A stretch of DNA of 64,000 bases from an uncultured Desulfobacteraceae bacterium (GTDB lineage Bacteria > Desulfobacterota > Desulfobacteria > Desulfobacterales > Desulfatirhabdiaceae): the NCBI GenBank assembly GCA_903839535.1, contig CAIMCT010000068.1, positions 1-64,000 of the forward strand, written 5' to 3'. Position numbers and translations under genes: made by a program. Under the pieces are notes generated by a model, which was given only the letters and a program-made list of their open reading frames with translations, was not told where the DNA came from and did no database searches. Shown piece by piece: positions 7,301 to 49,955 of the stretch. Each line of letters opens with the position of its first letter. The stretch's first letter is position 1.

Positions 7301-8932
7301 GCTTTTATTTAGTGCATCCTCCACCTTCTTGCGGTCGGTGATGTCGCGCGTACTCCCCTGCAGACCAGTGACATTTCCATCGGTGTCGCGGACAGCCCTG
7401 ACCAACGACTCTGTCCAGATGGTACCTCCGTCCTTTCGGTACATCTCAAGTTCCACGATGCGGTCGGCCCATCGGTCGGTCAGCGGCTTGGTATTTTCTT
7501 CTTCGGCTATCTGCAGGAGCAAGGGCACGGATACAGGCGTGATTGTTTGCTCCAAGGCAATGCGGTTAGCCTCATCCGGGGAGTACCCACGCAGCTTCCT
7601 GATGGACGGGCTGTGATAGGTGAAGGCCCCATCCATGTTTAACATCCAGATCGTGTCGGAGGCATTTTCCGCCAGGAGCCGGTACTTCTCCTCGCTCTCT
7701 TGAATGTCTTTTTTTGAGCTTTCTTTCTCCTGGATTAGATTGTCCAAATCAAGTTTGATGACAGCCAGAGCGTCCAGAACTGGTTTCAACGGGTGTTCCT
7801 CGTTCATGCCGTCTAACGAGATTCCTGCCTGATCCCAGTTAATTCCTCCGATCACCTGGAGCATCTCGTTGGCAAATCCTTTGAGCTGCTCCTCCGTATA
7901 GGTTTTGACCTCTGACTTCTGACTTTTCCCGCCAGAATCCACTCCTGTTTCTTGGATTCTTTCTCTCTCCGTGATCTCCAGAGCGTCCTGAAGGTCCTTG
8001 GCGACCATTACCGGAATTGAAACAAATGGTCTGTTTATCGCAACCAGCGCTTTCATGAAATTATTGAGACCAAAAATCACCGATAACCGGCAGGGGGTTT
8101 TCTTGTTTAACTCCTTTAACCCATGCAGATACTTCAATCTTGCTCTCCAGGGGATACTCTCAAATCTCTCCCAATTGATTATACGATAATAGTAGCCCTT
8201 TTCGGACAGACCGGCCTCATGAAGCACTTTCTCGTGTAATTCAAAGTATTTATCAACGTGAGATTCTCTTTGCTTTCCCCGCGCAATGGTGTAGAGGATG
8301 TCATCTCCGATCAGTTCAAATGATATTCCATACTCTTCAATATCCAGCGCCCACCCATCCTTCTTAAGCCTGGGATAGAGTCTTGAACCCACATCGATGC
8401 CACCTTGCCGCAAAACCTTCAAAGCATTTCGAACAGCCTCCCTGTAGTCTTTCGCTACAACGACAGGTATGACGGTTTTGTGCAGTCTCAACCCGACCTG
8501 AAACATGAATTTTATAAGGAATGGGGCCTCAAACACCCAGAATCCCTGAAGATGTCCCTTCACTTGTTCTTTCAATAAAAAATTTGTCAAGATCATCCGC
8601 CCCCCTCTTGACGAGGTATCAGCCAGCATCCGATAGTCTCTTAATTCGGCATATTTCCCGTCAGACAGACCTGCCTCGTCGATGACCTCTGCTCTTTTCT
8701 CAAGAAGAGATATTGATCCCTTTTCGCTTAAGTTACCTTTCAGGGTTATCAGGAGAATCGCTTCGCCAATGATGCTGTATGTCGCATAGTAATCGGAATC
8801 CAACTTGATTTCTGTCCACTCAGGCCTGGTTATTATGGACAAACCTGAAACAGGGCAAACGCTCTTGTAGCCGCCACAAGAGCATCGGCTAAGAGATTGG
8901 TCAGGGGGGAAAAACTGGCTGTCGTTTGGCAT
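4352..8932 (-). CDS. hybrid sensor histidine kinase: two N-terminal repeats of an unknown domain, 4 PAS, HisKA, HATPase, 2 REC
   Basis: Four YRLLAENASD/YRLLADNAQD/YRWVMNNMAD/YRNILESIED PAS units; FLANMSHEIRTPLNGILGM; GGTGLGTTISKQLTEMMGG; LILSDLNMPDVNGF-type and FMDVQMPVMDGY receivers. Confidence 0.93.
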   Translation of the reverse strand: MPNDSQFFPPDQSLSRCSCGGYKSVCPVSGLSIITRPEWTEIKLDSDYYATYSIIGEAILLITLKGNLSEKGSISLLEKRAEVIDEAGLSDGKYAELRDYRMLADTSSRGGRMILTNFLLKEQVKGHLQGFWVFEAPFLIKFMFQVGLRLHKTVIPVVVAKDYREAVRNALKVLRQGGIDVGSRLYPRLKKDGWALDIEEYGISFELIGDDILYTIARGKQRESHVDKYFELHEKVLHEAGLSEKGYYYRIINWERFESIPWRARLKYLHGLKELNKKTPCRLSVIFGLNNFMKALVAINRPFVSIPVMVAKDLQDALEITERERIQETGVDSGGKSQKSEVKTYTEEQLKGFANEMLQVIGGINWDQAGISLDGMNEEHPLKPVLDALAVIKLDLDNLIQEKESSKKDIQESEEKYRLLAENASDTIWMLNMDGAFTYHSPSIRKLRGYSPDEANRIALEQTITPVSVPLLLQIAEEENTKPLTDRWADRIVELEMYRKDGGTIWTESLVRAVRDTDGNVTGLQGSTRDITDRKKVEDALNKSEAQYRLLADNAQDQIWLMDLNLKPTYISPSVEKIRGYTFEEIVQLPLDKQLTATSFQSAMEFFSIEMPKAQADPTYFACPLELEFYNKDGSTLWSENTFSQIRDENGKQLSILGVGRNITVRKQAEEALRQSEEKYRWVMNNMADIISVLDMNLRFTYVSPSVTRVRGYTPEEAMAQTLDQTLTPESLTIAAKFFEEEMKLEDSGTADPDRNRILELAQYKKDGSIIWLENSLSFMRDAAQKAVGISSVSRDITDRKRVEENLRKSEEKYRNILESIEDGYFEVDLTGNLTFFNRSICNILNYPREELLGLNNRAYMDPENAKKVFQAFNEILVTRVPSKGFEWEVIQKGGARRHIEVSVSLMVSPEGMPTGFRGIARDVSERKKIELELKNHRELLEEMITARTSELAEAMRKSEYANKAKSQFLANMSHEIRTPLNGILGMAEVCLKTELDEEQKHIVGTITKEANSLLGIINEILDFSKIESGKLEIEQIPFDLRNLFEDMTESFSYRTINKGLELIFFISPETPTRVVGDPGRLRQILKNLIDNAFKFTHEGGIYVKAEPTQDMGDKIKLRFIVKDTGIGISKEKQAIVFESFTQADGSTTRKYGGTGLGTTISKQLTEMMGGEIGVDSEEGKGSTFWFTVVFSKQSETVFHRNKELPLSNDNSRSPFTVLRSPVNCEVGVLVVGDNKTSRQTIVEYVNSWGFIPVEATSAKEALSILKRYIASGEQVNLVLSDLNMPDVNGFDLAREIRSVESFNSVPIIVITAYGNAGDGKTCRDIGIEGYLTKPIRGKELRGAIDRVLVSSMSGENGGKIDLVTRHSIAEEARRRRVLLVEDYPTNQMVAKRHLEHAGYQVGLAEDGKQAIDAFKRSHYELIFMDVQMPVMDGYQATKAIRDFESELAAMENRNDKETMHRVPIIAMTAHAMSENKQLCLEAGMDDFLSKPFTRSDLLLMASKWLTERKTGYSHRPLTIDGKRLL

Positions 8933-8986
8933 GAACTTCCTCTTATAAAAGGCAGGGCACAGGATGCAGGTAGAAACCCCTGCTCC

Positions 8987-10231
8987 CTATTCCTGCGCAG
9001 ATACCGGCAGTTTTATGGTGGCTGTAGTGCCCCGGTCCGCTGTGCTTTCAAGCTGAATCATACCGCCATGGCGCTTGATGATCCTTTCGGTCAGCGACAG
9101 CCCGACACCAGTTCCGGAGCCAACCGGCTTGGTGGTGAAAAATGGATTGAACGCCTGCCGCAGCACTTCAGGCGACATACCCCGGCCGTTGTCAACTATC
9201 CGAATAACAATCTGAGCGTCTTTGCGATGCCATTCAGATGTTATTTTAATAGCGCCCTCGTTGTCCAGAGCATCGAATGCGTTTTTCAGCAGTTGCAGCA
9301 GGCACTGGTTTATCTCGTATGGAGCGCACTCAATCAGGGGAAGCTCCTGGAGCTGGGTAACAATATCGACCTTTTTATCCTCCTGATTGGGCGCAACCTT
9401 CAAAATTTCGGTTATGTTATTATTGATGTCTATTTTAGCCAGTGGCTCCATGTCGATCCCGGAAAAACGCTTCAGGCTGTTCACGATATCCATGATACGC
9501 GTCAGGCCCCTGTCGGCCCTGTCAAATTTTTCGTCCATGGAGCTAACAACCCGGTCAAGGCTGATCTCCGCAACATATTCCAGGTACCCTTGCACGAGTG
9601 GATCTGTTGCCGGTTTGTCCTTCCAGTATCTCAGGGCATCACGCATCTTATCCACATTTTTATTTAATATGCCGAGCGTGCTTTTGAGGAAGCCCAGGGG
9701 ATTGTTGATCTCATGGGCGATGCCCGCAGCCAGGGTGCCGATGCCGGCAATGCGATCCATCTCTATGAGCTGAAGATCCTTTTCCCGCAGCAGTTCAGTC
9801 TTTTCTTTGATTTCATCTACCTGACGCTCCAATGTGATATTCTTATCCCGCAGGTCCTCTCTCATTTTCTTGATAGACAGGTGTGTCAGGACTCGCGCTT
9901 TCACCTCAGCCTTGTGAAAGGGCTTGGTGATATAGTCAACCGCCCCCAGCTCTATGCCACGGGTTTTGTCCTCGACTTCAGTATTGGCGGACAGGAATAT
10001 CACGGGGACATCCTTTGTCTGCGAAGCAGTTTTAAGCCGTTTACAGACCTCGAAACCGTCAATGCCAGGCATCAGGATGTCGAGCAGAATCAAATCGGGA
10101 GGATTATCCGACAGAGCAACCATCAGCGCATCTTCACCGCTTTCCACTGTCGTGCACTCGCCCAGACTTGCCAGAAGATTCTGCAGTGTCATGCGGCTGA
10201 CAAACTCGTCATCAACAATCAAAATTTTCAT
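8987..10231 (-). CDS. response regulator-histidine kinase (REC-HisKA-HATPase)
   Basis: MKILIVDDEF...LILLDILMPGIDGFEV...ITKPF; GIAHEINNPLGFLKS; GTGVGLSLTERIIKRHGG. Confidence 0.93.
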   Translation of the reverse strand: MKILIVDDEFVSRMTLQNLLASLGECTTVESGEDALMVALSDNPPDLILLDILMPGIDGFEVCKRLKTASQTKDVPVIFLSANTEVEDKTRGIELGAVDYITKPFHKAEVKARVLTHLSIKKMREDLRDKNITLERQVDEIKEKTELLREKDLQLIEMDRIAGIGTLAAGIAHEINNPLGFLKSTLGILNKNVDKMRDALRYWKDKPATDPLVQGYLEYVAEISLDRVVSSMDEKFDRADRGLTRIMDIVNSLKRFSGIDMEPLAKIDINNNITEILKVAPNQEDKKVDIVTQLQELPLIECAPYEINQCLLQLLKNAFDALDNEGAIKITSEWHRKDAQIVIRIVDNGRGMSPEVLRQAFNPFFTTKPVGSGTGVGLSLTERIIKRHGGMIQLESTADRGTTATIKLPVSAQE

Positions 10232-13200
10232 GATTTATCCTGATCACAGAGTTCACAAAGTCCGCCAACCGCTTAAGCTCATGCTCAAGCTTAGACAGTA
10301 CCTCGGCGCCTGCCGTTAGCTTGCCAGACTTGCCAATTGTTTCAAGCTCCGTGGCAACCCCTGAAAGTGCAAAAGCTGTAAGAATCCCTGCGCCCCCTTT
10401 CATGGCATGGGCCTCTTTCATCACGATTTCGGCATTTCCGTCGGCCAAAGACTGCCATAAAGTTTCAATTTGCTGGCCGGCTCTCTCCAGAAATCCGTTT
10501 ACAAGTTCCATCAAAAATTCCCGGTTTCCATCGTACTCATCCAGCGCCCGGTCGTAATCCATTGGTGCGGCCCTTTCTGACGGACTATCAACGGCCGACG
10601 ATTGCATCATGGCAGGTATATGGCATAAATGGCATAATGTCCCATTTCCGGTCCACGTCTCTACCATTGCAATGACATCCTTTTTGTGGGCGGGCTTTGC
10701 AATATAATCGTCCATTCCTCTCTCCAGACAAAGCTCGCGATAACCTTTCATTGCGTGAGCTGTCATTGCGATAATCGGCACATGGACTGCATTGTCAGGG
10801 GTCGATATTTTCGTTTCATGCGCCCGAATACCCGCCGTTGCCTCAAAACCGTCCATCTCCGGCATTTGCACGTCCATGAAGATCAGGTCATACTGCTTGA
10901 GTCTGGCGGCGGCCAGCGCCTCTCGTCCATCAGAGGCCAGGTCAACCCGGCAGCCTGCACTCTGCAGGTGCTGCATGACCGCCTTCTGGCTGGATGGATA
11001 ATCTTCAGCCAGAAGTATCTGTACATCTCTTCTATTATTCTCGGCCAGGGTGTACCGGGTAATTATCTGCGGGACTGTACAAAAACTATCTCTGCAGTCG
11101 CCCATAACAGTCACACAGACATCATACAGCTCATTGCGCCGTACCGGTTTGGTCAAGTATCCTCGAATCCCCAGTTTTTTACAGTCCAACCCGTCTCCGC
11201 GCCGGCCGCCCGCGGTAAGAATCACAATCGGAATGTCATCTATCCCGTGAGTTGTCCTGATTTCACGGGACGTATCAAACCCATCCATGTCCGGCATTTG
11301 CATATCCATCAAAACAAGGTCGAAGGCATCCGCCGATAGACAGGCTTGACTGAGTTTGCCCAATGCCTCCCGACCGCCAGTGGCTTCAGCCGTCCGGCAA
11401 CCCCAGCTCTTTAGATATTCTGTCAGGATATGCCGGCTGGTCCAGTTATCATCCACGACCAGCACCCGCTTACCTTCCGGATCAGCCGCTTTACAAAGCG
11501 ACAGAGCAGCCTTTGGTGCAACCTGTTTTTCAAAAACCGCTGTAAAAAAAAACGTGGTGCCCTCACCAGGCCTGCTTTTCAGGTCTATTTCACCACCCAT
11601 CATCTCCACCAGTTGTTTGGCGATACTGGTGCCCAGCCCGGTTCCGCCGTATTTACGGGTGGTCGAACTGTCAACCTGGGTAAAGTTCTCGAAGATGATC
11701 GACTGCTTATCTTTGGGTATGCCAATTCCAGTATCCTTGACAGCAAAGCGGACCACTATCGTCTCACCAGTGTCTTCGGCCAGATCCGCCGAGATGTCGA
11801 TCCCGCCTGCATGGGTAAACTTCAGAGCATTTTCGGCAAGGTTTCGCAGAATCTGCTTCAGCCGTCCGGGGTCACCGATCAGGTGAGGCGGGATGCCAGG
11901 CGAAATAAAGCAGTCAAGTTCCAGGCCCTTTTGGTATGCCCGCGCAGCAAGGCTGGCAGCCACATCCTCAACCGCAACACGCAGGTCAAAGGGTATCGAA
12001 TCAAACTCAAGCTTGCCAGCCTCAATTTTTGAAAAATCAAGGATGTCATTGATAATGCCGTGCAGGGCATTCACCTCGGTGCTGATGGTACTAAGAATGT
12101 TCCACTGGTTATCGTCAAGGCAGGTGTCAAAGATCACCTCCGTCATGCCGATGATGCCATTGAGCGGTGTTCTGATTTCATGGCTCATATTGGCCAAAAA
12201 CTCGCTTTTAACCTTGCTGGCCTGCTCCGCGGCATCCTTGGCCTTTGTTAGCTCCGCCTCTGCCTGCAACTGCTCGGTGATGTCCCGGATGATACCAAAT
12301 GACGCCGTATATACTCCCTGGTTATTGGCCAGAAAAACCAGGCTCTGGACAACCGGGATAATCTTTTCTTCCTTGTTCCGGTAATAGGTCTTCCAGTTGC
12401 TGCCTCGGCCCTCCCTCATGAAGCGGTTGATAACTTCGGCCTGCTCGGTAATGAAGGTTTCATTGATGACAACCTTCTCACCACCGGTCATTTCATATAC
12501 GCCAGCAGTGTTGACGAAAAAAAATGTTACATGCCTGCCAAGCACCTCTTCCAGTCCGTAGCCCAGCATGTTGAGAAATGCCTGGTTCGCCCGGATAATG
12601 CGCCCGTCGCCGTCGGATACAATGATGGAATCTTCTGAAGTTTCGATAAGATTGGCCAACTGCCGCTCGGTTTCAAGCAGCTCGGCTGCAAATCGCTCGC
12701 GCTCGCATGTCTCGCTTTGCAGCGTACGGTGAGATGTTTCGAGTTCGACGTACTGCTGTCTGATTTTTTCCTCTGTGCGCTTTCGCTCCGTGATATCCCG
12801 AATACTTCCCTCATCACCGTTAAAGCGCCCATGCTGATCCAAGCAGACATGGCAGCACACCGAAACGGGTAACAGATTGCCATTTTTGTTCATCAGCGTT
12901 ATCTCGAAATCATAAACCGACCCCTGATCGGCGAGCATAGCCACCAGCCGCTCATACTCAGACGGGTCATGATAAACACTGGTCACATGCCTTCCGATCA
13001 ACTCCTCTGCAGTCCAGCCCGATAAATTTTGGATCGACGGTGACAGATCGATAATAATACCACTTGCATCGATGCGGTAATAAACATCCATGAACGCCTC
13101 GAAAATATTCCGGTAGCGCTCTTCACTGGCCTGCAGCGCCTGCTCTGCATGTGCGCTCCGGGCAACGTCGCGAGCGAGCTTTTCGAGCATCTCGTTGACG

Positions 13201-40653: not shown

Positions 40654-41832
40654 ATGGAGACTGTTATGCTGAAACACTGTTTGATCTATGGAATGGCTGG
40701 CATGGTATTTATCCTGTTTTCAGGATGCAGCGAAAAAATTGAACCTGGCGCCGTAAAATCTTCTCAAGCGCGGTCAATCAAAGCGCCAGTGGCAGTGGCT
40801 GCAATCAACCAGGAACCCATTCTTTACGAGGCGACCGGTACCGTATCAGCGGAGGCGGCCAGCACCCTTTCCAGCAAGATCATGGGTGTGGTGAAGGCGG
40901 TTTATGTCAAGGAAGGCGACCGGGTCAAAAAAGATCAGGTTCTGGTGGACATTGATCCAAGGCAGGTCAGGGCCCAGCTTAATCAGGCGGAAGCCGCCCT
41001 TTCAGAGGCCAGAAAGGCGGAGGCGGCCGCGCTTTCCTCACAGCATGCGGCCAAAGCATCCGCCGATTTGGGCGGAGCGACATACAACCGATATGTGAAT
41101 CTGATGAAAACCGAGTCTGCAAGCCGCCAGGAATTTGACGAGGTCAGCGCCAGGTTTCGCCAGGCAGAGGCATCTCTGGGTCAGGCGCAGTCAATTTTGG
41201 AAGCTGCCCGGTTCCGGATTCAACAGGCTGAAGCGGCTGTGGCAGGGGCCAGTGTCGGTGAAAAAGATTCAAAACTCTTTGCACCTTTTAACGGCGTTAT
41301 ATCCGCCAAACTGGTGGACCCCGGAAGCCTTGCAGCGCCTGGAACACCGCTGCTAAAACTCGAAAGCACCGATGCATTTCGCGTGGACATGATCCTTCCC
41401 GAAACCTACCTTCAGTTTATAACACTTTCTCAAACCGTATCGGTTTCCATTCCTTCCGCCGGCAGCAAGGATTTTGAGGGGACGATCAGGGCCATTTTTC
41501 CCGCTGCTGATGCCGCCAGCAGATCCTTTACTGTTCAGGTAGCCATTCCCTTTCACCCGGCAATTCACTCCGGAATGTTCAGCCGGGTAACTCTTGCCCA
41601 TGGGAATCAGGAAAAGCTGCTTATTCCCACAAGTGCGCTCATCCTCCAAGGTCAGCTTACCGGGATTTTTCTGCTGGATTCCGATCAGATCGCCCGGTTT
41701 CGAATTCTTCGCACAGGCCGAATATTCGGAGCCAGTGTTGAGGCCCTATCCGGAATCAGGCCAGGCGACCGTTTTGTGGTGATTCCTCCGCCGAACATGG
41801 TCGATGGCTTTCGGGTGGAGGTGCCGTCATGA
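40654..41832 (+). CDS. RND efflux periplasmic adaptor (MFP/HlyD-like)
   Basis: Lipobox [50 protein letters not shown]; coiled-coil hairpin. Confidence 0.94.
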
Positions 41833-43598
41833 CCCAGCCCGGCATGGCAGGCAAGATCGCCGGCTATTTCATCAATTCGAAGCTGACGCCCCTGTTCATA
41901 ATCGCATCGGTCCTTCTTGGCATTGCCGCTGTTATTGCCCTGCCTCGCGAAGAAGAGCCCCAGATCATTGTTCCCATGATCGACATTTTTGTGAAAATGC
42001 CAGGAGCCAGCGCCAAGGAAGTGGAAGAACGAGCAACACGCCCCATGGAGAAACTGCTATGGGAGATTCCCGGTGTCGAGTACGTCTATTCCACATCCAG
42101 CCCCGGAATGTCCATGGCGGTGGTGCGGTTTTATGTGGGCCAGGATGAGGAAAAGTCAATTGTCCGCCTCCAGTCCAAACTGATGGCCAATATGGACCGG
42201 ATTCCACCTTCTGTTTCTCCGCCTTTGATAAAACCCCGCTACATTGATGATGTCCCGATTCTGGCCTTGACGTTCTGGGGAAAGGATGCAGATCATTACG
42301 TCCTTCGCCGGGTGGCTGCGGAAGTGGACGATTTGATCAAACGGGAAGAGAATGTCTCCATTACTACCCTCATCGGCGGATATCGGCGGCAACTGACCGT
42401 TGATCTTGACCCGATCAGACTTTCGGCCTTTGGACTGGATATTGGCCGGGTCTCTGCGATGGTCTGCGCCGCCAATCAGGAGTCCGATGCAGGCGCATAT
42501 CCTTCACCTGCTGGTCAAATTCGGGTTCATGTGAATGGATTTTTGAAAACCAGCGCAGATGTTGAAGGCATTGTCGTTGGCGCTTATAACGAAAAGCCGG
42601 TGTATCTTAGGGATGTCGCCATAATTTCGGATGGCCCAGGAGAGCCCGACCAATATGCTTTTTTCGGGATGGGTCCTGCAGCATCCGAAAAAGGGCTCCG
42701 CGCTGCTGATGAGTCAACAAAAGGCGTGTATCCGGCTGTGACTCTGACGGTCGCCAAGCGCAAAGGCGCCAATGCCATTTCCGTTGCGCAGAAGGTTCTA
42801 AATCGCGTTGAGGATGCCAAAGGATCCGTGATCCCAGGTGATATTCAGATGACCGTTACCCGGCATTACGGGGAAACCGCAAAAGAAAAATCAGACGAAC
42901 TGCTGCTTCACATGCTGATCGCTATTGTTTCCGTCACCATTCTCATCTGGTTTACGCTGGGGCATCGGGAGTCCGGCGTGGTGGCTCTTGCAATCCCGGT
43001 GACGCTGGCTCTGACGCTTGCGGTGTTCTATCTCTATGGCTACACCCTTAACCGCATTACCTTGTTTGCGCTTATTTTCTCCATCGGCATCCTGGTGGAT
43101 GACGCTATCGTGGTGGTTGAAAACATGGTGCGACATTTCCGCCTGCCCGAAAACGCCAGCCGCCCCCGTCTGGATGTAGCCATAGAAGCTGTGGATGAGG
43201 TCGGCAACCCCACCATTCTGGCGACACTTACCGTTATTGCCGCCATCCTTCCCATGGCGTTTGTTGGCGGGCTGATGGGTCCCTATATGCGGCCCATTCC
43301 GGTCGGAGCTTCCGCCGCCATGTTTTTTTCGCTTATGGTTGCTTTCATTGTAACGCCATGGGCGTCTTTAAGGCTTATTCGCCATCATGACGGCCCGGTT
43401 CACGCTGAAACCGAAGACTGGAGCACCCGGCTTTACCGGAAGGTCATGACCCCCCTGATTGAAACAGCATTCTGGCGCTGGATATTTTTGGCGGCTGTCG
43501 CGGCCATGCTGCTGATAGCCTGTGCAATGGTGGGTGTCAGCATGGTAAAGGTCAAGATGCTTCCTTTGATAACAAGAGCGAATTTCAGGTCATTATAG
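41829..43598 (+). pseudogene. RND efflux permease, N-terminal part, interrupted by an apparent 1-nt frameshift
   Basis: RND motifs; ends [17 protein letters not shown] where the -1 frame reads [21 protein letters not shown], continuing in the next ORF. Confidence 0.88.
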
Positions 43599-43600
43599 AT

Positions 43601-45049
43601 ATGCCGGAAAGCGCAACCCTTGAAGAAACCGCTGCCGCCGGCCTGGAAATGGGAGATTATCTGAAAACCGTCAAAGAAGTAATTGACTATCAGATTCATG
43701 TTGGAATCTCCGGTCCCTTTAATTTTAACGGTCTGGTCCGGCATTACGATCTGCGGAAGGGCGCATATATGGCGGACATTCAGGTCAATCTGGTTGGAAA
43801 AGGAAAGCGCGGTCAGCAAAGTCACGAAATCGCCAAGCGGGTCCGTCCGCCTCTTGAAAAAATCGCCAACCGTTTTAACGCAAGAGTCAAGGTAGCCGAA
43901 GTTCCGCCAGGACCTCCGGTACTATCTACATTGATCGCCGAAGTCTATGGCCCCGACTACGAACGCCAGCGGGAAATCGCCCTTCAAATCCGCCAGATTT
44001 TCGAGCAGACTGCTGGAGTTGTAGATGTGGACTGGTACATGGAAGATAGCCAGCCCAGGTTTGATCTGGTGGTGGACAAGGAAAAAGCCGCACTACATGG
44101 CATAAGCGTAGCCCAGATTGCAGGGACACTGGAACTGGCGCTTTCCGGAAAACAGACCGGCCTGCTGCACCAGCCCAGGGAAAAAGAAGATGTCCCCATC
44201 ATTCTCCAGCTACCCCTGAAGGACCGTGCTGGAATTGAAAAACTTGAGACCATCAAGATCGCAGGGGCAGCAAATCGTCTGGTACCGCTTTCGGCGCTGA
44301 TTGTGGCTAAAAAGACAGAATCCGAGCGCAGCATTTATCATAAGAATCTGATGCCGGTGGTCTATGTGATCGGGGATGTGGCCGGTGAAAGAGAAAGCCC
44401 TGTTTACGCTATTCTGGAAATGCAGAAAAAAATAGATGCCATCACCCTTCCAGAAGGGTATAAAATTGCTCAGCACACTGCTGGCCTTCCGGACAGCGAT
44501 CGCAAGTTCGCCATGAAATGGGACGGCGAGTGGCACATTACTTACGAGGTGTTCCGGGATCTGGGAATAGCATTCGCCGTGGTTCTGGTCATTATTTTTG
44601 TTCTTGTGGTTGGCTGGTTTCAGTCGTTTTCCACGCCGCTGGTCATCATGATGGCCATTCCCTTCTCCCTGATCGGCATATTGCCGGCTCACTGGCTGAT
44701 GGGCGCATTTTTTTCAGCTACCTCCATGATCGGCTTTATTGCCGGGGCCGGAATCGTGGTTCGAAATTCCATCATTCTGGTGGATTTTATTGAAATTCGA
44801 GTTGCCCAGGGTATGCCCCTTGACCTTGCAGTCATTGATGCCGGAGCCGTTCGCTTTAGGCCCATGATGCTGACCGCGGCCGCTGTGGTTGTGGGCGCAT
44901 CAGTCATATTGTTTGACCCTATTTTTCAGGGCCTTGCCATCAGCCTGATGGCCGGAGAAGTGGCATCGCTTCTCTTTTCCAGGATGACGGTTCCGATCCT
45001 GTATTATCTGGACAAACGCTGGGAAAGCGAACATGTCAGTAATAATTAA
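43601..45049 (+). pseudogene. RND efflux permease, C-terminal part
   Basis: Continuation: [22 protein letters not shown]...[23 protein letters not shown]...[25 protein letters not shown]. Confidence 0.88.
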
Positions 45050-45320: not shown

Positions 45321-45362
45321 CTATACTGCAAACGGGCATAATCCGCACTTTCCTTATGCTCC
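45321..45362. repeat. 42-nt dispersed repeat (CTATACTGCAAACGGGCATAATCCGCACTTTCCTTATGCTCC)
   Basis: 37/42 identical by eye to 54083-54124. Confidence 0.8.
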
Positions 45363-45396
45363 CTCTCCCAGCGGGGGAGGGTTGGGGTGGGGGTCC
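45359..45396. repeat. REP-like palindromic unit (CTCCCTCTCCCAGCGGGGGAGGGTTGGGGTGGGGGT)
   Basis: Same family as 49864-49955. Confidence 0.75.
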
Positions 45397-45654: not shown

Positions 45655-48600
45655 TCAGCTCGCGGGTTTTCGCTTCCAGCGAAGCTCGACTTTTTTCCAT
45701 GCGCCGCCCTGGGTGAAACACTGCCAGCCCCATTTCAGCCAGTTCAGCAACGAGAAAGCCAGCCAGAGGGACCAGAGCAGCATCAGGCCATGAAACACCC
45801 ATTCCGGAAGACTGATGATCCAGGGGTCCGGCATAAAGCCGACTATTCTGTCCTGGGTCCAGTTCAGAACCCGGCTGGTGGATTGGTTTCCGGCGATCTG
45901 CATATCGGGAATTCCCATTAGCCCGTTTTCAATCGCCATGTATAGTCCGGATAGCGCCGCCGCTGTCCAGACTGCCAGTAAAAGCTGCGAGAAATTATAA
46001 GAAACCCATCCACCGCTGGGGATGGCGGTGTTTCGAATGCCAAGAGCCAGCAGCCATCCCACAATGATCAGCGCCATCAAGGGCGATGACTGGGCGAGAC
46101 CCATGGTTAAGAGCAACCAGTGGTGAGTCTTTAGCGGAGCAAGAGATGTTTTCCCCAAGCCGATCGAAATCAGAACTACGATCAGAAGATACCCCCAGAA
46201 CAGTACGGCGGGGCCCAGCCTGGGGCCAGACACCCAGAGTATCCAGCGGTGTTCCGGAACGTGAATGGCGATGGACGCATTGACAGCCGGAGCGCCAATG
46301 GAAACTTGAGGCGGGTGATAGCGCCACAGGCCGGATGACGGTTGCTGCCATTCCAGAACAATTTTCTGAGTTCCGGGAACAAGCGGAATCAGCACTTTCC
46401 GATCTTCCTGCCGAATAGGCTGTGACCGGCCCTGAATACTGACTTTCTGAAGTCTGGCATCCTGCGGCAGCTCCAGTTGGTGCTGGCCTCCTCTGCTGGT
46501 GCGGAGCATTATCGTCAGTTCCGCTTTATCCAGCCGCTCTCCGGGTGTCCACTTCAGAGCGGCGCTGTCCATCGTGATGATCGGGCCGTGAATCGCGGCA
46601 GGCCGTGAAATGCGGATATCAATGATCTCTCCCGGCCAGGGCCGCCACTCGGGCCGCCATTTTCTCTGAGAATCTTGCTGATGAATCACGGGAATTCCGG
46701 AAAAATCACAGTGCCATACCGGACTTGCTTCCAGAACCCATGATTCCGTCCATGGGCTGTCTTTTGGTGCGGTCAAGTGCAGCGTTTCAGTGAAATCAAG
46801 GTGTGAAATCAGGTTAATTTCCTGGGTGCCGGAATCAACATTGATCATGGCCTTTTGCTGTTCCGTGGGGATATCGGCAGTGGTCACTGACTCTCCGGCT
46901 AACAGCGGAAACTGAAGGGACACTGGGGTACCAGGAGGGGTCAACCGGGTGATGGTGGTCCGAATCTCCCATGTCAGGCCCAGGAAAAGCACTCGGTCAA
47001 CGTGAAAAAAAGGAGAAAGCGAGCTGGTTCCAACAGAAACTACGGACGGGTCCTGTTTTTCAATCCTCTGAAGCTGGATTCCGGCAGTCACCTGGCCGCC
47101 CGGCCCTATCCCCTGAACAGACCAGCCGCTGACAGTAGCCGTAACCTGGCGGGGTTTGATGGGCAGTGCGATCTGAATGGCATTTAATTTAGCGGTTTTA
47201 CCGCTGAGAATCAGGCGGTGAATGCCCTGCGGAACCAAAGCCCATAAATGGCCGTCAGCATCCTTCTTGAGACCTTTTAATGGCTGTTGATTCAGCAATA
47301 CGGTGTCCGGAGTCCAGTTTTGCCCATCTCCAGGCAAGGGAATGGCGGTTTCGGTGGCAGCCTGGACATCCATCAGCATTCTAAGATCGGTTGCGTCAAC
47401 CTGAACCTCCATTCGGGAAACATCGGCGCAGATCGGGAAGCAATCAGGTTTTTTTAACAGCCGGTGCTGAAGTTCCTCCAGAAGTTCATTAGGCGGATAG
47501 GATGCCGACAGAGCTTCCGCCTGTGCGCATGCCGAAAATCCCACTACTCCGCAGAACAACAGCATTGCAGCCAGGGTTGTGTGCCGGCCAAAATATCTCT
47601 TGGTGATACTGTTTCGCCAGTAGCCACCAAAATATCTCACGTCGCAGAGGCCCGCAGTCAATACTGCCAGCAGAATAACCCGGATGACTGCAAGTAGCAG
47701 GTTAAATCCTGGCGATATCAGCCAGAGCCGGAAGGTTTGGTCTTTGTCTATAGGTCCGTTCCACCTCATTGTAAAGGATCGCCATTTCCATCTGGGAAGG
47801 CCCGGACCTGTTTGAATCAGGGCTTGTGGGTCCTGGGCCAGAGTCTGGAGCTGGGCCTGAAGCTGAGACTGGTGCTGAGACTGGTGCTGAGACTTGAGCC
47901 GAGCTTGGGGCTGAGCCTGATTGATGCGGGCAGCCTTTTCTTCCTTGGCTTTTACGGGCACCGCCGGAAGAAAATCGTCTGATTTTTGCATGAGCGCTTC
48001 CCGCTGCAATTCAGGCTGCGGCGCAGTGGATGAGCCATTGAAGGAAGCCTTGACAGGCATCTGCGGATAGGCTGAGATTTTTTCCAGTTGCGGGTAAAAT
48101 CCTTGCCGTATTTCCTGAATCAAGAAAGGAATGGCAATGGTCAGAAGAACTACAACACTGCATAGATTCCACAGAATAGCAGCTTTTTTCACCCACCCCT
48201 CCGGAAGTACCCGGGCCAGAGCGGTAGCTGCCAGAAGACTCAACCAGACGGTCTTGGGCGCGCCGGGTTCATGGTAGATGAGGGTCATGGTGACAAGAGC
48301 CAATCCCCCCCAGGTAAAAGATTTGAGCCGTGTGACTGCCATGGTCGTGACAAGAACCAGAAAAAAATCCAGAAGAGACCAGCGTTCCACCCATGAGGCC
48401 GGCGTTACATCCACGCCACCTGCGGCAAAAAGCTTCCATCCGGGGGGAAGGTTCAATGCGCCGGAAGCGCTTTGGAACCCGTGATCCCAGCCCGCTGCCG
48501 GTATTCGGCGAAGCGGCGAATTAATTCGTGAATCAGCATCCAGCATCAACTGCCCTTGCCTCAGCTCAACCCCGGCCTTGCCTTCCTGGCCATGAGCAGT

Positions 48601-49824
48601 AACAAGCTGATCGACTCCATCAACCGCAACCTTTCCCAGAACGCTGGGCGGATTCATGGCCAGAAACCATTGACGGCTCAGGGTTCCTGTGACCATATCA
48701 TTTTGGGTAAATCCCATTCCGTCAAAATCCAGCCACCAGGTTCGAAATATGTGCAGTTGGTCAGGCGCAGGATCACTGTCCCCCCGTCGAAGCGTTTCGA
48801 AACGGATAACGGTTTCAGGGTTGATCAGATAGGCTGGTAATTCTTTCCATGCAGGCGGAACCTCGGCCTGGCCCGGATCAATTGCCGGAGCACCTGAAAT
48901 GGTCACCATCCGTAAATGGTTTTGGGACTCAAACGACCAGATTTCCTGGCCATGAGTACATGCGCCTGCCGCGATACTGTCAATGGGGTTTTCGAACCTG
49001 GTTTCAATTTCCAGTATCCAGTTTCCGGGCCTTGCCTGAATCATCACTTCACCACTGGGGCTGATTCTTGCGGGCAGAGCTGATGTCAGTTGGAGGGGAA
49101 CAGCGCCTTTCAGAAGCACATCATTCAGACGGATTTCCCGGGCCTGTCCGGATACATCCATTCGAAGATAATGAATGGCTGTCATGGGAATGGTGTCTTT
49201 AAAAAGCCTGAAAACGCGAATATCCAAACGATTTTCAAGAGTTGAATCGGAATCCCGTTTCTGAATCCAGAGTCTTCCGGAACTGTCTATCAGCGGCTGT
49301 TCCACCAGCCGGCCTTTCACCAAAAGCGTCACAATGCCGGATTCCGGAGGAATCATCAGCGTTTCCGGCAGCTCTTTCCAGGAAAAATATCCACTTACCC
49401 GGTGTTCGCCCTTGGTAAGCTGGATGGAAGGAACCTGGTCCCGCAGCAGGACAGGCACCCGTTTTCCATCCAGCTCGATGTTGTCAGGATAGAGTTCCGG
49501 ATTTCCGGGAAGCGGTGCCCAAGAGTCGCGAAACACCATCCACTGCTGTTCAAATTCGCCTGTGTTTTCTTCGATGGTCAATTTCAATCGGGAAGGCCAC
49601 AGGCATGCAGGCCAAAAGATATCCTGGTCCGAATCGTTATAGCGTGCAGGGCAGAATTTTTCTTCCATGCCGTATAGAACCCAGGATTTCCATCCGGAAA
49701 GCTCCTGGGGAATTCCAAGTGATGGCGAGACAGTCGCCAGAGAATATGGGGCGACCACGGTAAGCAGGCTTATGCTTAAAAAAACAAGTGCTCTGACCCA
49801 AACAGATTTTTGCGGAGCTGTCAC
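45655..49824 (-). CDS. large membrane protein of unknown function with internal duplication and Q/S-rich linker
   Basis: Signal/TM at N-term, two extracytoplasmic modules each followed by TM clusters, linker QPQARLKSQHQSQHQSQLQAQLQ. Confidence 0.75.
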   Translation of the reverse strand: MTAPQKSVWVRALVFLSISLLTVVAPYSLATVSPSLGIPQELSGWKSWVLYGMEEKFCPARYNDSDQDIFWPACLWPSRLKLTIEENTGEFEQQWMVFRDSWAPLPGNPELYPDNIELDGKRVPVLLRDQVPSIQLTKGEHRVSGYFSWKELPETLMIPPESGIVTLLVKGRLVEQPLIDSSGRLWIQKRDSDSTLENRLDIRVFRLFKDTIPMTAIHYLRMDVSGQAREIRLNDVLLKGAVPLQLTSALPARISPSGEVMIQARPGNWILEIETRFENPIDSIAAGACTHGQEIWSFESQNHLRMVTISGAPAIDPGQAEVPPAWKELPAYLINPETVIRFETLRRGDSDPAPDQLHIFRTWWLDFDGMGFTQNDMVTGTLSRQWFLAMNPPSVLGKVAVDGVDQLVTAHGQEGKAGVELRQGQLMLDADSRINSPLRRIPAAGWDHGFQSASGALNLPPGWKLFAAGGVDVTPASWVERWSLLDFFLVLVTTMAVTRLKSFTWGGLALVTMTLIYHEPGAPKTVWLSLLAATALARVLPEGWVKKAAILWNLCSVVVLLTIAIPFLIQEIRQGFYPQLEKISAYPQMPVKASFNGSSTAPQPELQREALMQKSDDFLPAVPVKAKEEKAARINQAQPQARLKSQHQSQHQSQLQAQLQTLAQDPQALIQTGPGLPRWKWRSFTMRWNGPIDKDQTFRLWLISPGFNLLLAVIRVILLAVLTAGLCDVRYFGGYWRNSITKRYFGRHTTLAAMLLFCGVVGFSACAQAEALSASYPPNELLEELQHRLLKKPDCFPICADVSRMEVQVDATDLRMLMDVQAATETAIPLPGDGQNWTPDTVLLNQQPLKGLKKDADGHLWALVPQGIHRLILSGKTAKLNAIQIALPIKPRQVTATVSGWSVQGIGPGGQVTAGIQLQRIEKQDPSVVSVGTSSLSPFFHVDRVLFLGLTWEIRTTITRLTPPGTPVSLQFPLLAGESVTTADIPTEQQKAMINVDSGTQEINLISHLDFTETLHLTAPKDSPWTESWVLEASPVWHCDFSGIPVIHQQDSQRKWRPEWRPWPGEIIDIRISRPAAIHGPIITMDSAALKWTPGERLDKAELTIMLRTSRGGQHQLELPQDARLQKVSIQGRSQPIRQEDRKVLIPLVPGTQKIVLEWQQPSSGLWRYHPPQVSIGAPAVNASIAIHVPEHRWILWVSGPRLGPAVLFWGYLLIVVLISIGLGKTSLAPLKTHHWLLLTMGLAQSSPLMALIIVGWLLALGIRNTAIPSGGWVSYNFSQLLLAVWTAAALSGLYMAIENGLMGIPDMQIAGNQSTSRVLNWTQDRIVGFMPDPWIISLPEWVFHGLMLLWSLWLAFSLLNWLKWGWQCFTQGGAWKKVELRWKRKPAS
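47863..47898. repeat. three 12-bp tandem units (CTGAGACTGGTG) encoding QHQS repeats
   Basis: ctgagactggtg ctgagactggtg ctgagacttgag. Confidence 0.85.
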
Positions 49825-49863
49825 GTTATTCCTCCTCTGATGATCTGTTAAACGGCAACACGC

Positions 49864-49955
49864 TCCCCTCTCAGCGAGAGGGACCGTGGGGAAGGCAAGT
49901 GGCTGGCTTGAGACAACTTTTCACCCCTCCCAACATCCCCCCGCTGGGAGAGGGG
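49864..49955. repeat. inverted pair of REP-like units (BIME/MITE-like)
   Basis: CTCCCCTCTCAGCGAGAGGGACCGTGGGG and CCCCTCCCAACATCCCCCCGCTGGGAGAGGGGCCTC in inverted orientation. Confidence 0.75.

Follow-up and report, generated by a model that had tools for sequence, protein, structure and literature searches.

Identification of the Protein and Its Family

What is the large protein encoded at positions 45655–49824 of the 64,000-nucleotide (nt) stretch of contig CAIMCT010000068.1 (an uncultured Desulfobacteraceae bacterium) that we analyzed, referred to here as the window? The original prediction, made from the letters of the DNA, described it as a membrane protein of 1389 amino acids (aa) that was built by internal duplication and could not be placed in a known family. 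Our results support that interpretation: the protein is a member of a conserved family for which the resources we searched contain no description, and it was very probably built by the ancient doubling of a unit comprising a beta-rich outside part and a membrane bundle. Beyond the prediction, we found that each half is a two-module repeat with its own co-conserved cysteine pair, and that models of the ectodomains resemble the folds of Ost1/ribophorin I and of the M1 aminopeptidase N-terminal domain.

The open reading frame (ORF) exists as predicted, on the minus strand (the prediction gave no strand); the plus-strand frame across the same positions contains many stops. Translation would begin at a GTG codon, and a ribosome-binding site, AGAGGAGG (49831–49838, minus strand), can be read from the sequence 6 nt 5′ of it. 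The protein of the nearest congener is identical at 1108 positions (80% of the 1389 aa). Comparison of these two by the Nei-Gojobori method (NG86) gave a nonsynonymous divergence (dN) of 0.108 and a synonymous divergence (dS) of 0.528 (dN/dS ∼0.2), and the protein is therefore under purifying selection. Its length and motifs are conserved over 53 members of the family.

Scans of the family against Pfam, NCBIfam, PADLOC, and PHROGs returned no match, and thus no known anti-phage defence model from PADLOC; when 36 members were scanned, only isolated single-member matches were seen (at most 1/36 members per model). In a sequence search of the PDB, neither the single sequence nor a 36-member profile found a chain better than E 2.3, and literature searches returned nothing on the family. 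For a conserved membrane protein of ∼1350 aa, present in two large phyla and subject to purifying selection, to have no curated family is a real annotation gap.

Internal Duplication

When the profile of 53 homologues was compared with itself in hhalign, aa 72–577 aligned collinearly with aa 797–1303 over 477 columns with 19% identity (probability 98.7, P 1.7e-16, score 142); P ranged from 1.4e-16 to 1.7e-16 and the scores from 140 to 142. With 26 homologues the probability was 96.6 and P was 4.8e-10, and the aligned length of half versus half across runs was 444–477 columns. The observed score of 142 compares with 18.4 ± 2.9 (maximum 27.7) for column shuffles, 27.2 ± 5.5 (maximum 43.7) for shuffles of 12-column blocks (120 shuffles in all), 25 for the reversed profile, and 14–17 for an unrelated real domain, M1_N, aligned with the same half profiles. 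The duplication also survived a cross-phylum split, in which the N half of one phylum was compared with the C half of the other (P 2.4e-7 and 1.5e-15). Both pairs of parallel segments that had been quoted in the original prediction are in register in hhalign, and the self-alignment on which the prediction had staked its case succeeds on family profiles. Blastp of the single sequence did not detect the duplication (E 0.26).

Repetition also occurs at a second level, within the ectodomains, where a module with the pattern LP..a.L..V.v.G.......l.L.pG.H.v occurs four times. We term the copies in the first half A1 (aa 72–161; 49342–49611, minus strand, as are all features of the protein given below) and B1 (aa 380–470; 48415–48687), and those in the second half A2 (aa 797–892; 47149–47436) and B2 (aa 1109–1200; 46225–46500). 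The hhalign P values were 8e-13 for A1-A2, 5.7e-6 for A1-B2, 4.3e-5 for A2-B2, 2.9e-4 for B1-B2, 1.2e-3 for A1-B1, and 0.038 for B1-A2, making B1 the least certain of the four. The plan of the protein that follows from these alignments is A1-B1-transmembrane (TM) / A2-B2-TM, with two beta modules per half.

The TM bundles alone, compared half versus half, gave P 0.046, which we do not claim as independent evidence. Segments after the bundles that appeared duplicated by eye (LxWNGPV... and LxWxQDR...) gave P 0.23, and we do not claim them as repeats. As neither the bundles nor these later segments are significant alone, the duplication is established for the ectodomains and the membrane parts are consistent with it. 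Although unusual, the resulting architecture belongs to a well-known general type, the polytopic membrane protein with an internal duplication and large loops in the periplasm. It also offers handles for testing, in the form of two homologous heads, two Cys pairs, and two juxtamembrane motifs.

Predicted Topology and Conserved Features

Family-averaged hydropathy revealed 12 hydrophobic segments in the pattern 1+4+1/1+4+1, two of which are weak (the third within aa 483–571 and the second within aa 1205–1298). The N-terminal segment is TM1 or a signal anchor (aa 13–31; 49732–49788). It is followed by ectodomain 1, which is beta-rich and predicted to be periplasmic from the model, the alignment, and hydropathy (aa 36–480; 48385–49719); by TM2–TM5, which also appear as four helices in the model (aa 483–571; 48112–48378); by a variable Q-rich linker of low conservation (aa 583–663; 47836–48078); and by TM6 (aa 706–727; 47644–47709). 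TM7 (aa 750–768; 47521–47577) opens the second unit, which continues with ectodomain 2, predicted on the same grounds to be beta-rich and periplasmic (aa 772–1200; 46225–47511), TM8–TM11, supported by model and hydropathy (aa 1205–1298; 45931–46212), and TM12 (aa 1342–1360; 45745–45801), after which comes a Lys/Arg-rich tail. Because basic residues are found in the loop at aa 728–749 and in the C-terminal tail, we placed both conserved motif loops, along with the beta domains, in the periplasm.

Resistance-nodulation-division (RND) pumps have a 1+5/1+5 TM topology, two large periplasmic loops, and an internal two-fold repeat. The hydropathy and charge pattern of the 1389-aa protein agree in suggesting 12 TM helices in a similar 1+5/1+5 layout with two large periplasmic loops, as in RND and SecDF-type pumps. 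Unlike RND pumps, neither the protein nor the 36 members matched ACR_tran or another RND profile (the neighboring RND pump, used as a positive control, matched ACR_tran at 5.5e-90). The family also differs from these pumps in that its heads are modelled as beta-sandwiches, not porter domains, and in that a periplasmic insert is predicted between TM5 and TM6.

A Cys pair immediately precedes each beta domain. C58 and C74 (49603–49653) are found together in 52/52 members that have residues there, and C795 and C799 (47428–47442) are both present in 52/53 members and both absent in the remaining one. Such co-conservation is as expected outside the cytoplasm, and we predict that the pairs form disulfides, one per head.

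W, G, and P predominate among the conserved residues; invariant or near-invariant polar or acidic residues are E294, D376, N1313, E1027, and D1325. In the motif WLDF[DNS]GxGxxxxDxIxG (aa 364–380; 48685–48735), W364, F367, D376, and G380 are invariant, and the second half has no evident counterpart. The Asp spacing in WLDFDGxGxTxxD recalls that of metal-binding loops without being canonical; we rejected an EF-hand-like reading because neither the spacing nor position 5 agrees with a canonical loop. Conservation also marks QTGPGxPxWxW (aa 671–681; 47782–47814) and GLLGxPDMQIxGNxSxxxLxWxQDR (aa 1301–1326; 45847–45924), in which D1325 is invariant in 53/53 members. YPQLE and GPxLGPxVLFW are further near-invariant motifs.

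Fold Models of the Two Halves

We made AlphaFold2 models of each half from alignments of 8 and 9 sequences, and both contain a beta-rich part followed by helices. When the C half was compared with the PDB in Foldseek, ranks 1–8 of 950 matches were all Ost1/ribophorin I (PF04597; E 1.7e-9 to 1.7e-8, probability 1.00); the later ranks were mainly M1 aminopeptidases (E ∼1e-5), with pilin and integrin chains interspersed. The N half gave weak matches to IRAP (E 8e-4), ERAP2, and, at rank 3, Ost1 (E 1.9e-3). M1 aminopeptidases were thus matched by both halves, through their N-terminal beta domain (PF17900; ERAP2, IRAP, LTA4H). That both halves independently find the same two folds lends mild extra support to the duplication.

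Ost1 is a non-catalytic subunit of the eukaryotic oligosaccharyltransferase with two similar beta luminal domains and a single TM helix, and it has been proposed to hold the product peptide (PMC7226087); it has been reported solely from eukaryotes and TACK/Asgard archaea (PMC11417166). Its two luminal domains may parallel the A-B pairs of our protein, in a comparison with template modeling scores (TM-scores) of 0.20–0.26 and a C-half model with a predicted local distance difference test score (pLDDT) of 65. The Ribophorin_I profile had no match at E ≤10 in the protein's own genome or at E ≤1 in the 36 members. In contrast to M1 aminopeptidases, the translated 1389-aa sequence contains no HEXXH zinc-binding motif. 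A Pfam scan gave no match to M1_N, and hhalign of M1_N with the family profiles remained at background (score 14–17, P 0.18–0.49) with an M1_N profile built on 14 usable sequences.

Distribution and Descent of the Family

The genome carries a single copy of the gene. Full-length members were found in 25/58 related genomes, 9/198 sampled genomes of the same phylum, and 29/399 sampled Pseudomonadota, and they include named records from Methylomonas, Methyloglobulus, Methylococcaceae, and Desulfobacterales. Nearly all members are full length (about 1320–1480 aa), with one per genome. A 100%-complete genome of the same genus had no match to the gene, which thus seems dispensable, having been lost or acquired even among congeners. 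A quick tree of 53 members, in which some branches are long, required 3 changes between the two phyla, compared with 18 in shuffles; descent thus seems to have been mostly by phylum, with a few possible transfers. No genomic context was conserved across more than 50 family loci. The neighbors, which we named by reading the sequences by eye and not from a family scan, are housekeeping or variable genes: prfB, htpG, PBP1, an APC transporter, chemotaxis, HAD phosphatase, and FGE-type genes.

One member, WP_015452075.1, is an unannotated "hypothetical protein" that differs from the 1389-aa protein in its plasmid location (pAZKH of Azoarcus sp. KH32C); it has 34% identity over the N half and belongs to the family over its full length by profile. 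pAZKH is a 738-kb mobilizable plasmid on which the gene, at 8905–12999, overlaps a downstream isoaspartyl peptidase/asparaginase gene by 4 bp, and a replication initiation gene lies nearby. Another member is found on an IMG/VR contig (1–6102), just past the structural genes of an apparent Mu-like prophage (recognized by reading from portal- and head-morphogenesis-like ORFs), that is, at the insertion edge. We rejected a viral origin of the family, since this sole viral-contig match resembles host DNA beside the prophage edge.

Proposed Role and Alternative Explanations

We tentatively favor the view that this unnamed, single-gene inner-membrane family captures substrate with its heads, couples capture to the membrane through its paired TM bundles, and serves as an envelope assembly or transport factor. 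The anatomy and the family on which this view builds are solid; the function itself, capture of a substrate in the periplasm with possible coupling to the membrane bundles, we infer. An ancient tandem duplication of [TM - module A - module B - 4 TM - periplasmic loop - TM] would have produced a pseudo-two-fold protein with 12 TM helices, in which the Q-rich linker joins two large periplasmic heads rich in beta structure. The heads, which are modelled like the non-catalytic Ost1/ribophorin I and M1 substrate-binding domains, may serve to capture or hold a substrate, either periplasmic or lipid-linked. The bundles, together with the invariant juxtamembrane motifs (YPQLE...QTGPGxPxW and GLLGxPDMQIxGNxS...WxQDR), could couple this capture to the membrane. 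With an RND-like topology the protein would act alone, which agrees with a solitary gene whose neighbors vary at the >50 loci.

Several observations weigh against this proposal. The half models are of mediocre quality (pLDDT 58 for the N half and 65 for the C half; predicted template modeling scores 0.33 and 0.39), the Foldseek TM-scores of 0.09–0.26 may reflect generic beta-sandwich similarity, and the searches described above gave no sequence link to Ost1 or M1. The low TM-scores lead us to treat the Ost1/M1 resemblance as a lead on fold class, not as proof. Hydropathy and positive charges are the sole basis of the topology. We established no network of intramembrane charges of the kind found in RND pumps; for D486 and R715, only conservation was seen. 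The neighborhoods revealed no partner or substrate gene linked to the family.

A static envelope scaffold or chaperone, in which the heads bind and stabilize periplasmic proteins or complexes and the TM bundles serve as anchors without transport, is possible and nearly as likely as substrate capture. What the models resemble are binding domains without catalytic function, and we found neither a partner gene nor any conserved signature of catalysis or transport. However, conservation near the membrane (WLLD at aa 482–486, RxGxYPQLE, GPxLGPxVLFW, and GLLGxPDMQIxGN) equals that of the heads, which would be unusual for mere anchors. It is unlikely that the protein is an enzyme with an unrecognized active site at the periplasmic face of the membrane: the conserved acidic and polar residues listed above would suit one, but we found neither a recognized catalytic motif nor a match in Pfam or NCBIfam, and the predominance of W, G, and P is typical of structural conservation.

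We think it rather improbable that the two heads are genuine if very distant homologues of the ectodomain of Ost1/ribophorin I, joined in two copies to a transporter-like membrane bundle, as a bacterial branch of that lineage serving an envelope pathway without STT3. Were the Ost1-like fold confirmed, the domain family would extend to bacteria, raising the question of what it binds there. A bacterial counterpart of eukaryotic/archaeal Ost1 that works with an STT3/PglB-type oligosaccharyltransferase is suggested by the eight best PDB matches of the C-half model but is very unlikely. STT3 (PF02516) was present in 0/25 family-bearing genomes, which refutes such a partnership within this order, and 3/58 genomes have STT3 and lack the family; moreover, Ost1 has one TM helix versus about 12 hydrophobic segments here. 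The PEP-CTERM/exosortase system is similarly patchy over the same phyla, and this scattered distribution could suggest an accessory protein of that envelope system. Exosortase (PF09721) was nevertheless found in 6/29 family-bearing Pseudomonadota and 76/370 without the family (21% versus 21%), so there is no association and we give this explanation hardly any credence.

Genomic Surroundings in the Window

The gene was said to face an efflux operon convergently, as it does: the RND genes are on the plus strand and the last of them ends at 45049. It was also said to stand alone, which is approximately correct: glnB and amtB lie upstream on the same strand, with glnB 283 bp away. The glnB/amtB neighborhood is kept no further than the nearest congener, where one additional gene separates glnB from the family gene, and the surroundings in other genomes are unrelated.

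Inverted copies of the repetitive extragenic palindromic (REP)-like element CCCTCTCCCAGCGGGGG lie on either side of the gene (45361–45391, plus strand; 49924–49954, minus strand). The same pattern occurs 107 times per strand in the draft genome and 0 times in a backwards-read control. The flanking repeat is thus a genome-wide element and provides no evidence for a mobile-element boundary.

The adjacent RND pump gene is split by a frameshift within 43530–43660 and may be a real pseudogene or the product of an assembly error. Its two ORFs, 41829–43598 and 43601–45049, match complementary parts of ACR_tran.

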